Origin: an uncultured Arenicella sp.
GTDB taxonomy: Bacteria; Pseudomonadota; Gammaproteobacteria; Arenicellales; Arenicellaceae
DNA: 47,042 bases
Assembly (NCBI GenBank): GCA_937918955.1
Contig: CAKZRZ010000163.1
Location: 1-47,042 of the forward strand
Direction: 5' to 3'
Part shown: piece after piece, positions 9,420-43,845 of the stretch
How the letters are laid out: the number at the start of each line of letters is the position of its first letter
How positions within the stretch are numbered: position 1 is the stretch's first letter
Notes under the pieces: model-generated
Told to the model about the DNA's origin: nothing
The model's input: only the letters and a program-made list of their open reading frames with translations
Databases searched by the model: none
Program-made: the position numbers and the translations under genes

Positions 9420-10331
9420 TTACGCGTTTCGGTTAAGTTCAACAAACGCGTCTTCTAAGCTTGATTTGCTTACTGTCAAATTGCTTAGAGATGGGTCGAG
9501 CTCAAATAGCTTCTTCAAACTCTTGCTTGCATCGGCGCTGCGTATTTCAAGATTCTTTCCGTGGTGATCCACTGACTTAACATGCTCTACCGAGGCAACG
9601 ATTTGCGCGTCGAGTACGGTTGAACATCGAATTACCGCACCGCCTGCAGATGCTCTAATTTGTTCGGTGGGCGCGTCGGCAATTACTTGGCCATTACTCA
9701 TTACGATAGTGTGGTCGGCCAGCGAATCAGCCTCTTCGAGGTAATGCGTCGTGAGCACTACCGCTGTGCCGCTTTTTGATAATCTGCGAATGGTTTCCCA
9801 CACCGTTTTTCGTGCCGAAATATCCAAGCCGGTGGTAGGTTCATCAAGGAATACAATCTTAGGCTGGCCTAAAATTGAGAGAGCAAATTGCACACGACGC
9901 TTCTGCCCCCCTGAGAGCTTTTTGTAGCGTTGATCAATAAACGATTCGAGATCGCAGAGTTCACTCAATTGGCTTATCGAAAGGGGGTTGCGATAGTAGC
10001 TCTGAAATAGCTCTATGTGTTCTCGGGCACTGAGTAAATCGGGTAGGTTGGTGTCTTGCAGCATTACACCAATTAGTTGTTTAGTCTCAGCGAGGCCCGG
10101 GGCTTTGCCGAAGAGTCTGATACGGCCCGAGTTCGGTTTGAGTAAACCAAGAGCGCAGTTGATTAAGGTGGTTTTACCCGCGCCATTGGCGCCAAGTATC
10201 GCGGTAACCCCTGAGTTTGGTATGCTTAAAGAGAGGCGGTCAAGAGCCGTTTTGTCGCCAAAGCGTTTAACTACCTCGCTGCATAATAGCGGCGTGGAGC
10301 GTTGAGTGTTGCTTGAATTGATTGATGTCAT
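9420..10331 (-). CDS. ABC transporter ATP-binding protein (CcmA/BcrA type)
   Basis: This 303-residue ATPase has all motifs intact: Walker A GANGAGKTT (47-55), Q-loop Q92, signature LSGGQ (139-143), Walker B IVFLDEP (159-165), D-loop TGLD and switch H196. The C-terminal extension (about 230-303) is the usual tail of exporters of the multidrug/ABC-2 class. First gene of the operon that continues with permease, amidohydrolase, kinase and regulator. The upstream gap (10332-10445) contains a palindrome that may be the operon's operator. Confidence 0.95.
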   Translation of the reverse strand: MTSINSSNTQRSTPLLCSEVVKRFGDKTALDRLSLSIPNSGVTAILGANGAGKTTLINCALGLLKPNSGRIRLFGKAPGLAETKQLIGVMLQDTNLPDLLSAREHIELFQSYYRNPLSISQLSELCDLESFIDQRYKKLSGGQKRRVQFALSILGQPKIVFLDEPTTGLDISARKTVWETIRRLSKSGTAVVLTTHYLEEADSLADHTIVMSNGQVIADAPTEQIRASAGGAVIRCSTVLDAQIVASVEHVKSVDHHGKNLEIRSADASKSLKKLFELDPSLSNLTVSKSSLEDAFVELNRNA

Positions 10332-12078: not shown

Positions 12079-12087
12079 TGATCCAAG

Positions 12088-12141
12088 TTTACACTCGATT
12101 AAAAGTTTACACCCGATTAAAAATTCACACCCGATTAAAAT
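12088..12141 (+). repeat. Three tandem 18-bp repeats between tatD and tcdA
   Basis: Copies are TTTACACTCGATTAAAAG (12088-12105), TTTACACCCGATTAAAAA (12106-12123) and TTCACACCCGATTAAAAT (12124-12141). They differ at one to three positions. The third copy runs into the tcdA ATG (12140-12142), so the array fills the divergent promoter space and replaces any Shine-Dalgarno sequence of tcdA. Confidence 0.9.
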
Positions 12142-23428: not shown

Positions 23429-24007
23429 CTAAATAACAATATATTCGTGATCGGTGAGTATAGCATCTAAGGGAACATCCCACGATTCACGTGCGAGCGA
23501 GGTAATTTCTTGAAAATGATGTGCTACGCCTACCAAATAGGGTCTAGTGCTCGGTTGATGGGCAAGAGCGTGCATTGCGCGATCGTAATATCCGGCGCCC
23601 ATACCAATGCGCGTGCCGCTGCGATCAAACGCGACTAATGGTATTAATATGATGTCAAACGCGTTTGCTGGCCATGGTGAGCCGTTTGCGATTGGCTCCT
23701 CGATGCCATATTTATTCTGCGTACTTATCTGCTTCGCCGAATAAAATCGCATTTGGCTTAAGCCAAAATTAGTGATCTTTGGGTAGTAAACAGTTTGGCA
23801 TGAAAGCTTGCTAACTAGGGTTTTAGGAGAAATTTCACCAGCGAATGGAGAGTAGCTTAGAACACGTTTGGCTTTTAGTAGGCGGTTTGATGATCTGGCG
23901 TTTTTCGCTAGGTTTTTTTCGGCTATAGCTAGTTCTTGGCTTGTTAGATTTGATCTTTGTTGGCGTAGGGATCGTCTTAGCTCTTTTTTATTTGGTGTCT
24001 GATTCAT
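23429..24007 (-). CDS. ygfA: 5-formyltetrahydrofolate cyclo-ligase
   Basis: This 192-residue protein is the normal length for 5-FTHF cyclo-ligase (Fau/YgfA), which uses ATP to return 5-formyl-THF to the active folate pool as methenyl-THF. Motifs: [12 protein letters not shown] at the N-terminus (nucleotide/folate site), [31 protein letters not shown] and LDAILTD. Its position downstream of zapA and 6S RNA, on the same strand, is the classic gammaproteobacterial order. In E. coli the gene is co-transcribed with 6S; here 0.55 kb of repeats separates them. Confidence 0.95.
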
Positions 24008-24134
24008 TACAACTGTGCTTATTCATAGTATTCGCCGAAGCTAGAGAAACTTATTGTGCGCTGAATTGTTGAATAGTACAGCTCAACTCTTGGAGTTCTT
24101 AGCTAGATCTGCCACTCGCCGTGGCGGGCGTTCA

Positions 24135-24202
24135 TTCTTTTGACGCAAAAGAACGGAACCAAGAAAACATCGGCTGTCGTAACTTCGTTACGCCTTTAGG
24201 CG
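24135..24202. repeat. Run of perfect short hairpins at the ygfA side of the repeat region
   Basis: TTCTTTTG-ACG-CAAAAGAA (24135-24153), CGTAAC-TTC-GTTACG (24178-24192) and CGCC-TTTA-GGCG (24191-24202) follow each other. The first, with its GGAACCAAGAAAA continuation, recalls intergenic repeats I associate with many proteobacterial genomes, though I cannot confirm this without a search. Translation gives only short basic ORFs. This and the 41-bp array occupy most of 24119-24560. Confidence 0.55.
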
Positions 24203-24314
24203 GGAAAGCGGCGTGCTGGCCCTGCAGGCTATGCACCGATGGTTTGGTGGTGGTTTTACTCGAAAGCCTCGAGCAAAAACGAAATACTTTTCTCGCTTTC
24301 GAAAAAGCCACAGC

Positions 24315-24560
24315 CATGAGCCTAAGCGTGCCAAAGCACGCGCCGAATAAATAGCCCTGAGCCTAAGCTCGCTAAGACGAGCGCCGAATAAACAGCCCTG
24401 AGCCCAAGCTCGCTAAGGCGAGCGCCGAATAAACAGTCCTGAGCCCAAGCTCGCAAAGGCGAGCGCCGAATAAACAGTCCTGAGCCCAAACGTGCCAAAG
24501 CACGTGTCGGCTAAAAAGCCCCGAGCCCAAGTGCGCTAAAGCGCACGCCGAATAAAAAGC
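24315..24560 (-). repeat. Six tandem 41-bp hairpin repeats directly 3' of 6S RNA
   Basis: Units start at 24315, 24356, 24397, 24438, 24479 and 24520, each exactly 41 bp. Each has conserved flanks (CTGAGCCCAA and CGAATAAACAG on the plus strand) around a 6-bp stem with a 4-nt loop (CAAA, TAAG, AAAG or TAAA). Stem sequences change with compensation: GCGTGC/GCACGC, GCTCGC/GCGAGC, ACGTGC/GCACGT, GTGCGC/GCGCAC. Unit 2 has one mismatch. The same family, reading on the opposite strand, occurs at 43686-43815. Contiguous units and palindromic cores exclude CRISPR. Confidence 0.92.
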
Positions 24561-24764
24561 AGAACGTTACCCATATGTGCCGTAAATTCTTGGTGCCTTG
24601 AACCAATGGTTCAAGTGGGAATCTACAGGTCGCATCAGGTGCGCTCGTGGAATAGAACTAGCCTACTCTAACGAGTGCTCACAACAGCGACGTGGTCTGA
24701 TACCCGGGTAAAAATACTAGGTTCTAAGGGATTAGAAGAATCTACGAACACCACAGGCAACGTC
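24561..24764 (-). ncRNA. ssrS: 6S RNA
   Basis: The locus lies between zapA and the 5-FTHF cyclo-ligase gene on the same strand, the standard position of ssrS. Read leftward it contains CACTTGAACCATTGG followed by TTCAAGGC, the strongly conserved 3' hairpin of gammaproteobacterial 6S RNAs. The ends pair: ACGTTGCC (from 24763) with GGGTAACGT near 24570, extended by GTG/CAC, giving the closing stem of a long rod with a central bubble. Length is about 200 nt, against 184 nt in E. coli. 6S RNA mimics an open promoter and sequesters sigma-70 holoenzyme in stationary phase. Exact ends are approximate. The 3' end abuts the 41-bp array. Confidence 0.88.
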
Positions 24765-24771
24765 AATACCA

Positions 24772-24777
24772 ATTATA
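24772..24777 (-). promoter_or_regulatory. -10 box of the 6S RNA promoter
   Basis: TATAAT on the minus strand ends 7-8 bases before the predicted 6S 5' end (about 24764). The -35 region at about 24795-24800 (ACTTAC) is weak. A small GC stem (CGCGA/TCGCG, about 24822-24835) separates it from the zapA stop. Confidence 0.6.
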
Positions 24778-24849
24778 GCAGCGCTGCTAAGTGCGTAAGT
24801 GAAAAAAAGATTAATAAATTTTCGCGAGGCGTCGCGGGTGTGAACAGAC

Positions 24850-25161
24850 TTATAGTGTTTCAGCGTCTCTAAGTACTTCGTCGATGCGTTCTTGTAGTGA
24901 GTCTAAACGTGCCTGCACCTGATCTTGGCCAGCGGTTGAGCGGCGCAACTGCAGTAAGTCGTTAGTGATATTCAAGGCCGCCATGATGGCACAGCGCTCA
25001 GCGCCGATAATCTTGCCGGTTTTTTGAATTTCTTTCATATTTTTGTCGAGATAGCGCGCAGCGTCCATCAAGTCTTCTTGCTCTTCAGGAGGGCAGGCCA
25101 CGGAAAAGTCGCGGCCCATGATGGAAATGTTGATGCCTTTTGATTGCATGGAACTCGACAT
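24850..25161 (-). CDS. zapA: Cell division protein ZapA
   Basis: This 103-residue protein has the ZapA layout: an N-terminal globular part (INISIMGRDFSVACPPEEQEDL, then AARYLDKNM) and a C-terminal coiled coil (about 60-100, MAALNITNDLLQLRR, LDSLQERIDEVLRDAE). ZapA binds and cross-links FtsZ filaments at the septum. It sits between the coiled-coil protein gene 25243-25446 upstream and 6S RNA downstream, as in other gammaproteobacteria. A second ATG at codon 5 is possible. Confidence 0.93.
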   Translation of the reverse strand: MSSSMQSKGINISIMGRDFSVACPPEEQEDLMDAARYLDKNMKEIQKTGKIIGAERCAIMAALNITNDLLQLRRSTAGQDQVQARLDSLQERIDEVLRDAETL

Positions 25162-25242: not shown

Positions 25243-25446
25243 TTATTGGTCTTCAAGAGTACGAAGTTTTTCAACGATCTTTTCAAGTCGACTGCAGGCG
25301 AGACGGTTCTTCTCTTTGAGCTGAGTTTTCTCAGTCATCAACGAGTGTTGCTCAGTTTTCAACGTTCGATTTTCACTGCTCAAGCGTCTGCATTCGCCGA
25401 TTAGGGTTTCAATGCGTTGCTCTAGGCCGATTATGTTGGCTTCCAT
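25243..25446 (-). CDS. Small coiled-coil protein (TIGR02449 family, ZapB-like)
   Basis: This 67-residue protein is almost entirely one predicted coiled coil, with heptad-spaced leucines and isoleucines (IGLEQRIETLIGECRRL, ENRTLKTEQ, LEKIVEKLRTLE). Its size and position just upstream of zapA match the TIGR02449 family seen beside zapA in many gammaproteobacteria. A role in division together with ZapA is inferred from context; the family has no settled function known to me. An 81-bp gap separates it from zapA. Confidence 0.8.
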   Translation of the reverse strand: MEANIIGLEQRIETLIGECRRLSSENRTLKTEQHSLMTEKTQLKEKNRLACSRLEKIVEKLRTLEDQ

Positions 25447-25750: not shown

Positions 25751-26395
25751 ATGAGCAATTTAACTGACCGATTCACCCAGATTGAAGCCACGCTTAACCT
25801 GGCGTCTATCGAAGAACTTACTCCGAGTGAGTTTCATGGCACTATCGTTGGCGCCATGTGCAATCATATGAAGTCTGGAATGACCCCTGATTTATTGAAG
25901 CTCATAGAGCCGAGTGCCGATGCCAATGATGGCCGGTTTACTCAAGTGACAGCCTTGCTTTACGAGCTGTATCGTGAAACGAGTGAATTGTTGATTGAGA
26001 CAAAGGATGGTTTTGATTTGATCTTGCCGAGCGATGACGAGTCAATCGAAATTCGTGTCGAGGGTGTTGCAACCTGGTGCAAAGGTTTCATCTTGGGCTT
26101 ACTATACAATGATGCGTTTAGTATTGATCAGTTGCCTGAAAGCGGTGCCGAAATAGCGCGCGACTTAATGGAAATTGCTGAAGCCGCAGCAGGCGCAGGT
26201 GATGAGCAGGAAGAAGACTGGGCCTTAGCTGAGCTGCACGAGTATATAAAGGTGGGTTCGCAATTAATTTTTGAGTTTATTTACTCCGAAAGCTCGGAGG
26301 ATCAAGAAGTCGCAGCTGAAGGCTCTTCTTCCGCTGAAGGCACTTCTTCCGCTGAAGGCACTTCTTCCGCGGATGGCTCTCAACCCATACATTAG
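25751..26395 (+). CDS. ygfB: UPF0149 family protein YgfB
   Basis: This 214-residue acidic protein has the YgfB/UPF0149 fold: LTPSEFHGTIVGAMC near the N-terminus, VEGVATWCKGFILGLLY in the middle and EEDWALAELHEYIKVGSQLIFE near the end. In Pseudomonas aeruginosa YgfB modulates ampD expression and beta-lactam tolerance; elsewhere its role is unknown. It is the first gene of the conserved ygfB-pepP-ubiquinone hydroxylase cluster. The last 30 residues are a low-complexity tail made of three AEGSSS/AEGTSS repeats, which is not part of the usual family. Confidence 0.9.
   Translation: MSNLTDRFTQIEATLNLASIEELTPSEFHGTIVGAMCNHMKSGMTPDLLKLIEPSADANDGRFTQVTALLYELYRETSELLIETKDGFDLILPSDDESIEIRVEGVATWCKGFILGLLYNDAFSIDQLPESGAEIARDLMEIAEAAAGAGDEQEEDWALAELHEYIKVGSQLIFEFIYSESSEDQEVAAEGSSSAEGTSSAEGTSSADGSQPIH
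26315..26368 (+). repeat. Three tandem 18-bp repeats inside the ygfB 3' end
   Basis: GCTGAAGGCTCTTCTTCC is followed by two copies of GCTGAAGGCACTTCTTCC and a decayed fourth start (GCGGATGGC). The unit is in frame and encodes AEG-S/T-SS, so gain or loss of copies would lengthen or shorten the YgfB tail without a frameshift. Confidence 0.9.
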
Positions 26396-43667: not shown

Positions 43668-43845
43668 ACTAGCTTTAACGAGCTTTGGTTTTTTACCCGG
43701 CGCCCGCTTGAGCGGGCTTTGGCTCAGGGCTGCTTTTACCCGGCACTCGCTCTAGCGAGTTTGGGCTCAAGGCTGCTTTTTACTCGGAGCTCGTTCTAGC
43801 GAGTTTGGGCTCAGGGCTGTTTTTGTCTCGAGTTTGCTTTTGCAG
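43668..43845 (+). repeat. Second array of the 41-44-bp hairpin repeat family, between hpf and ptsN
   Basis: Three clear units (43686-43728, 43729-43771, 43772-43815; 43, 43 and 44 bp) have decayed units on each side. Shared flanks on the plus strand are GCTG-T-rich-CCCGG before and TTTGGGCTCAGG after the hairpin. Stems are GCCCGC/GCGGGC, ACTCGC/GCGAGT and GCTCGT/GCGAGT (two G-T pairs) with loops TTGA or TCTA. The orientation is opposite to hpf-ptsN transcription. Homologous to the 24315-24560 array in reverse complement. Confidence 0.88.

Follow-up and report, generated by a model that had tools for sequence, protein, structure and literature searches.

A hairpin array beside the 6S RNA gene of an uncultured Arenicella may be one site of a dispersed family of tandem DNA repeats

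Rickettsia palindromic elements occur as in-frame copies in unrelated proteins, and the STAR elements of Staphylococcus aureus are intergenic tandem arrays of GC-rich units with a conserved core. In the available part of their description, REPs consist of a hairpin and a conserved unpaired flank, and lie mostly outside genes and sometimes inside them (PMC3733652). The double-hairpin and palindromic repeats of fungal mitochondria are, in the accessible portion of that paper, small palindromes thought to be mobile (PMC7218506). How does the array of hairpins next to the 6S RNA gene of an uncultured Arenicella sp. compare with these? I analyzed a stretch of 47,042 nucleotides (contig CAKZRZ010000163.1, hereafter the window) together with loci of related genomes.

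By general description, the likeness to STAR elements lies in the intergenic tandem GC-rich units and the conserved core, while the core sequence and the host differ. With REPs and the GTAG- and CGTC-tagged repeats, as far as the available parts of two papers go, the Arenicella family shares palindromes that are short and dispersed, have a conserved unpaired flank and are mostly extragenic (PMC3733652; PMC8266576). In contrast to these (again by the same parts of both papers), it lacks the tag, forms head-to-tail arrays of up to 12 units, and has palindromes that are optional and unrelated from site to site; no tie to a Y1 transposase was found. It shares with Rickettsia palindromic elements the in-frame copies in unrelated genes (also mentioned in the available part of PMC3733652), a feature that alone gives no membership, but it differs from them in its tandem arrays, shorter unit, sequence and host class, the Gammaproteobacteria. 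Small optional palindromes recall the fungal mitochondrial repeats by description (the accessible portion of PMC7218506), and no common sequence is claimed. In a literature survey with partial coverage of papers, no recognised description of this repeat family was found.

The array beside the 6S RNA gene

The features of the window are as follows.

24564..24762, minus strand: 6S RNA gene (RF00013, 61.9 bits, cut-off 46.4)
24522..24562, minus strand: hairpin unit 1, stem GTGCGC/GCGCAC, beginning within the T tract 3′ of 6S (model R1, 59.1 bits)
24481..24521, minus strand: hairpin unit 2, stem ACGTGC/GCACGT (model R1, 57.1 bits)
24440..24480, minus strand: hairpin unit 3, stem GCTCGC/GCGAGC (model R1, 61.3 bits)
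24399..24439, minus strand: hairpin unit 4, stem GCTCGC/GCGAGC (model R1, 63.4 bits)
24358..24398, minus strand: hairpin unit 5, stem GCTCGT/GCGAGC (model R1, 61.5 bits)
24317..24357, minus strand: hairpin unit 6, stem GCGTGC/GCACGC, with the linker extending to 24311 (model R1, 60.9 bits)
26315..26379, plus strand: third array, bare, 18-bp period, four GA/TC units, in frame at the C-terminus of a UPF0149 protein (TRF; sequence and frame; Pfam PF03695)
43686..43819, plus strand: second hairpin array, three units, between S30AE-family (hpf-like) and PTS EIIA (ptsN-like) genes and antisense to both (TRF and model matches; neighbours by Pfam)

The 6S-side array spans 24317-24562 on the minus strand, and its six units at an exact spacing of 41 bp, as originally predicted, were recovered both by TRF (24310-24560, 6.1 copies) and by a repeat search (five exact 41-base spacings). 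It had also been predicted to start at the 6S end; unit 1 begins at 24562, one base past the RF00013 match. The full-length match to this model stops at 24564, and a search of 24000-24900 with E up to 1 gave no other match. The array strand is better folded than its shuffles (z -2.66), and no minus-strand intrinsic terminator (a GC stem directly followed by a T run) was found inside 24311-24562. A blastn search of the array against plasmids and phages gave no match, a miss made weak by low-complexity filtering. In the second array, the hairpin units occupy 43686-43813 and are spaced by 43 and 44. Thus, the nine clear units of the original prediction are found as six at 6S and three here, but the 41-bp spacing does not extend to the latter.

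In these nine units, standard pairs fill 54/54 stem cells, and four of the six stem pairs have double changes. The covariation score is 0.630 against a shuffled mean of 0.298, as high in 0/500 shuffles, and only 13-56% of cells pair when the stem is slid. The predicted repeat family with conserved flanks and covarying stems is thus borne out. The covariance model R1, built from the nine, gave 13 matches in the host genome at E up to 0.013, including the nine themselves, and at E up to 0.1 it matched 11/41 genomes, host included, nine of which lie within the host genus (18 genomes). Further units are thus present in the host genome and genus, not only in the window. The host is Arenicella-like, and the best pepP relative found (97% identity) comes from an uncultured Arenicella. 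I chose 44 units of seven genomes from 76 model matches (E up to 1), omitting weak matches, redundant copies of L062 and everything from G010; 90.5% of their 253 stem cells pair, and covariation holds on this larger set (0.429 versus 0.173 shuffled). In a model-fitted alignment with the G010 units (50 distinct rows), 254/285 stem cells pair; by eye, the G010 units, which lie outside the 44-unit set, have lost the palindrome. Among non-Watson-Crick stem cells of the motif strand (the strand of 6S), G-U occurs 6 times versus 17 for A-C in A4 and 5 versus 20 in A5, small counts to which misalignment may contribute.

Is the hairpin kept where relatives have their 6S gene? A search of the window and of sixteen pepP loci located this gene in 15 of them, not in L092 and L097. 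Tandem linkers are present at 5/15 of these sites: with a GC-rich stem in the host and L086, with an unrelated palindrome (TTGTCAGC...GCTGACA) in L087 and L088, and without any hairpin in L089. By eye, L090 has a degenerate tandem and L091 an apparent single decayed unit, and no tandem linkers were seen at the remaining eight. The sites bear different palindromes or none, so that conservation applies to the linker but not to the hairpin. The defining part of the repeat is the linker with its 2-bp covarying mini-stem. The original prediction had attached the array specially to 6S RNA. This tie is not supported: besides the hairpin-free L089 site, the same linker occurs at numerous further sites, lies either way round relative to transcription, and is also present within open reading frames. 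The hairpin array is not a 6S accessory.

The linker and its pairing rule

The linker between hairpins is GGCTCARGGCTG, usually followed by a T-rich TTTA. It has 142 matches, versus 4 for the reversed pattern, in 15/18 genomes of the genus, and a longer 13-mer, GCTCARGGCTGTT, has 211 matches in 16/18 (control 0). Tandem linkers were found in 7/369 genomes of the class and in 9/398 of Pseudomonadota, two overlapping samples that both contain the host, with a reversed control of 0. All these matches are in Gammaproteobacteria, in several families; most genomes are incomplete, and counts per site are non-independent by descent. The bare array of L160 matched two plasmid records of Salinivibrio kushneri annotated as photolyase, and in the one inspected the tandem linkers lie near the photolyase C-terminus. 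No match was found for L160 in E. coli genomes or for two other bare arrays in plasmids, where low-complexity filtering again weakens the miss, and the bare tandem pattern had 0 occurrences in viral contigs.

The general form of the motif is GCY-xy-RGGC-y′x′, in which xy and y′x′ are complementary. This was noticed in tiles of 800 kb of G012 and 400 kb of G007 (1.2 Mb), on seven contigs chosen for length, all of which bore known linker matches. TRF reported 81 arrays of period 12-70 there, 18 of them with at least two CA/TG-like copies. In tandem clusters of at least three copies fitting GCN-xy-N-GGC-zw, zw is complementary to xy in 17/17 cases (CA/TG 7, GA/TC 5, AA/TT 3, GC/GC 2), although the rule was first counted in the same tiles in which it was noticed, and the clusters share ancestry, so that 17/17 is effectively four types. 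Non-tandem occurrences of the frame are non-complementary in 3107/3344 cases. Among all five-letter frames, GC..GGC gives the most clusters in both tiled genomes. Over 1.84 Mb of loci, tiles included, 59/61 distinct clusters are complementary, and the other two are different registers of one 14-bp array in L080. Another 400 kb of tiles, taken in G010 and G014 on contigs that likewise bore known linker matches, gave 4/5 fitting clusters; three of these four are known sites, and one of the two new clusters has only one of its two pairs. Within the 330 kb of loci retrieved for pepP and for the SLT gene, 4/4 clusters fit, or 5/6 with two copies allowed, mostly at known sites. The held-out support for the pairing rule is thus thin.

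A second mini-stem, joining positions 1-2 with 8-9, was considered and rejected; positions 2 and 8 covary in 0/22 cases in a set of 79 arrays. Outside that set, an open-frame array on the minus strand of L117 (~1958-2040) has four copies of GTTCAGGACTG and one of GCTCAGGGCTG, with T2/A8 in place of C2/G8, a double change unseen in the 79. A second linker class, GGCCGCAGGCGC or GGCTGCGGGCGC, occurs in L115, L080, L069, L215 and L249 and corresponds to GC/GC among the types of the pairing rule; in L115 it alternates with GGCTCAGGGCTG.

The third array of the window is a hairpin-free member of the wider family. Its units 1 and 4 are fully paired, and units 2 and 3 have one of two pairs. L086 carries an array of the same kind at the place matching host 26315-26379; there (~9869-9915) the frame ends before the array, whereas that of the host is in frame within the UPF0149 gene. 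Two more repeats were seen in the window: an 18-bp tandem repeat, AAGTTTACACCCGATTAA (3.1 copies, 12085-12140), which runs up to a ThiF-family start codon at 12140 and does not fit the motif, and two copies of a short 21-bp repeat at 25323-25364.

Array architecture and genomic neighbours

The architecture was examined in 52 arrays with 175 spacers, from loci fetched for motif or repeat matches. The arrays fall into two size classes, with periods of 16-28 (bare) and 37-61. Short-period spacers have no arm above 3 (an arm of at least 5 in 0/137, most being too short for one), while long-period spacers have an arm of at least 5 in 33/38, against shuffled means of 2.6-4.6. The five exceptions belong to the second window array, L059, L070 (two) and L113. 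The palindrome is usually placed between TTTA and the linker (GGCTC), and palindromes are unrelated in sequence from site to site. TTA or TTTA lies near the start of 34/38 long spacers versus 6.1 expected, and of 97/137 short ones versus 61 expected. A bare 18-mer, TTTATTGGCTCARGGCTG, is present in G004 and G014. The simplest reading is that a core unit gains inset palindromes or loses them. Spacers of equal length are 85-88% identical within arrays and 47-53% between them (excluding L136, a near-copy of L132). Spacers thus recur within an array and are not unique, and a CRISPR array was rejected; the original prediction had not recognised one either.

Arrays lie 3′ of the SRP RNA gene, two bases on in G000 and about 37 bases on in G009, and 3′ of a pnp-like gene. 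Units are present in the tRNA-Tyr/tRNA-Gly(tcc) spacer of four genomes and, by eye, after terminator-like stems; linkers also lie 3′ of tRNA genes at four further loci, at distances of no more than a few hundred bases. Relative to adjacent genes both orientations occur, the reversed one at hpf-ptsN and in the tRNA-Tyr/tRNA-Gly spacer.

In-frame arrays were found in abhydrolase, SLT/LysM, glycosyltransferase, halogenase, PfkB, AA-kinase, SbcD and YhdP genes; a Pfam scan of nine array-bearing frames found a family in eight. Fourteen of the 52 arrays were labelled coding, by frames of at least 140 codons, minus L139 (where the array seems to precede the start) and plus L182 (98 codons, cut by the contig end); the frame of L157 is uncertain, and L132 and L136 are near-copies. 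All 41 coding-labelled periods are multiples of 3 (38 of 18 and three of 21), compared with 53/134 elsewhere, though a label that rests on open frames is biased toward multiples of 3. The SLT/LysM gene is present in 18/18 genomes of the genus, while its array was found only in G010 among 15 readable N-termini (absent from 14 of 17 orthologues, those whose N-terminus was read); the linker varies freely there. In G010, the near-identical gene copies L132 and L136 (C2 and C80), close to contig starts, have 5 and 4 repeats in one count, perhaps an assembly or strain variation.

A DNA repeat family and its alternatives

Taken together, the array at 6S probably, though by no means securely, belongs to a DNA repeat family that is dispersed in Gammaproteobacteria and amplifies in tandem, and in which folding, not sequence, is conserved. 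Each site would start from one copy of the motif, and, judging from present-day arrays, local tandem duplication would enlarge the array and homogenise its units; within genes, only whole-codon duplications would survive. More speculatively, the motif and the palindromes may work in the form of single-stranded DNA folded on itself, as could happen in lagging-strand gaps; there, a putative nuclease or a polymerase template switch might duplicate the unit and keep the arms complementary. The position just after 6S and SRP RNA would then be due to a T-rich site that tolerates the repeats and would imply no role in either RNA. Palindromes can be corrected by template switching, and HUH-like nucleases act on single strands; by analogy, either is a possible mechanism. 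An analogy to the cleavage sites of IS608, TTAC and TCAA, was considered and set aside. Discounting an RNA role, a single protein site and REPs, as argued below, leaves a process of tandem duplication in which complementarity is either favoured or regenerated. It is conceivable, but unlikely, that these are self-amplifying repeats with base pairing as their heritable identity, in which varied complementary dinucleotides around an NGGC loop, and varied palindromes, would imply a dedicated system able to recognise single-stranded DNA in its folded state and to write copies in tandem.

A motif that is exact across sites and species while the spacers differ might be the site of a sequence-specific DNA-binding protein, multiplied since clusters bind better. 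I regard this as doubtful because the four motif types, all found in the G012 tiles, are all complementary, and one protein would hardly read four; in-frame copies within unrelated coding sequences also speak against it. It is a little more doubtful that the arrays are REPs or IS200/IS605-type palindromes moved by a Y1 transposase, here set head-to-tail. The hairpin with an unpaired flank, mostly outside and sometimes inside genes, is as in REPs (the available part of PMC3733652), and Y1_Tnp matches are present in 13/18 genomes. However, GTAG or CGTC on either strand occurs in 7/44 units versus 23.7 expected from shuffles, which agrees with the original remark that the GTAG head is missing. 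This lack of a tag and the arrays of G004, G009 (78% complete) and G014 without a Y1_Tnp match disfavour REPs, and bare arrays have no palindrome.

A role at the RNA level, in which the hairpin chain would be the 3′ part of the 6S or another transcript and stabilise, process or terminate it, appears improbable. The arrays 3′ of 6S, SRP RNA and the pnp-like gene and the folding of the array strand would fit such a role. DNA is preferred over RNA because arrays occur in both orientations (reversed at the tRNA and hpf-ptsN sites) and in open frames, because the L089 site is hairpin-free, and because G-U is rarer than A-C on the 6S strand, the wrong way for RNA pairing; nor does the array contain a minus-strand terminator-like site. 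Ordinary slippage minisatellites, whose common motif would be inherited or coincidental, are equally improbable. Slippage would account for local homogeneity, and tandem arrays are common (of the TRF arrays in the G012 tiles, 49/63 are without two CA/TG-like copies), but slippage alone explains neither the complementarity rule nor why one motif recurs at unrelated loci and in further families of the class.

If the reading as a dispersed DNA repeat family is true, a family defined by pairing settles beside stable RNA genes and inside enzymes in several families of Gammaproteobacteria. It would offer a tractable handle on the origin and the lasting perfection of tandem repeats and palindromes. 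It would also caution against taking covariation next to an RNA gene as proof of an RNA function.
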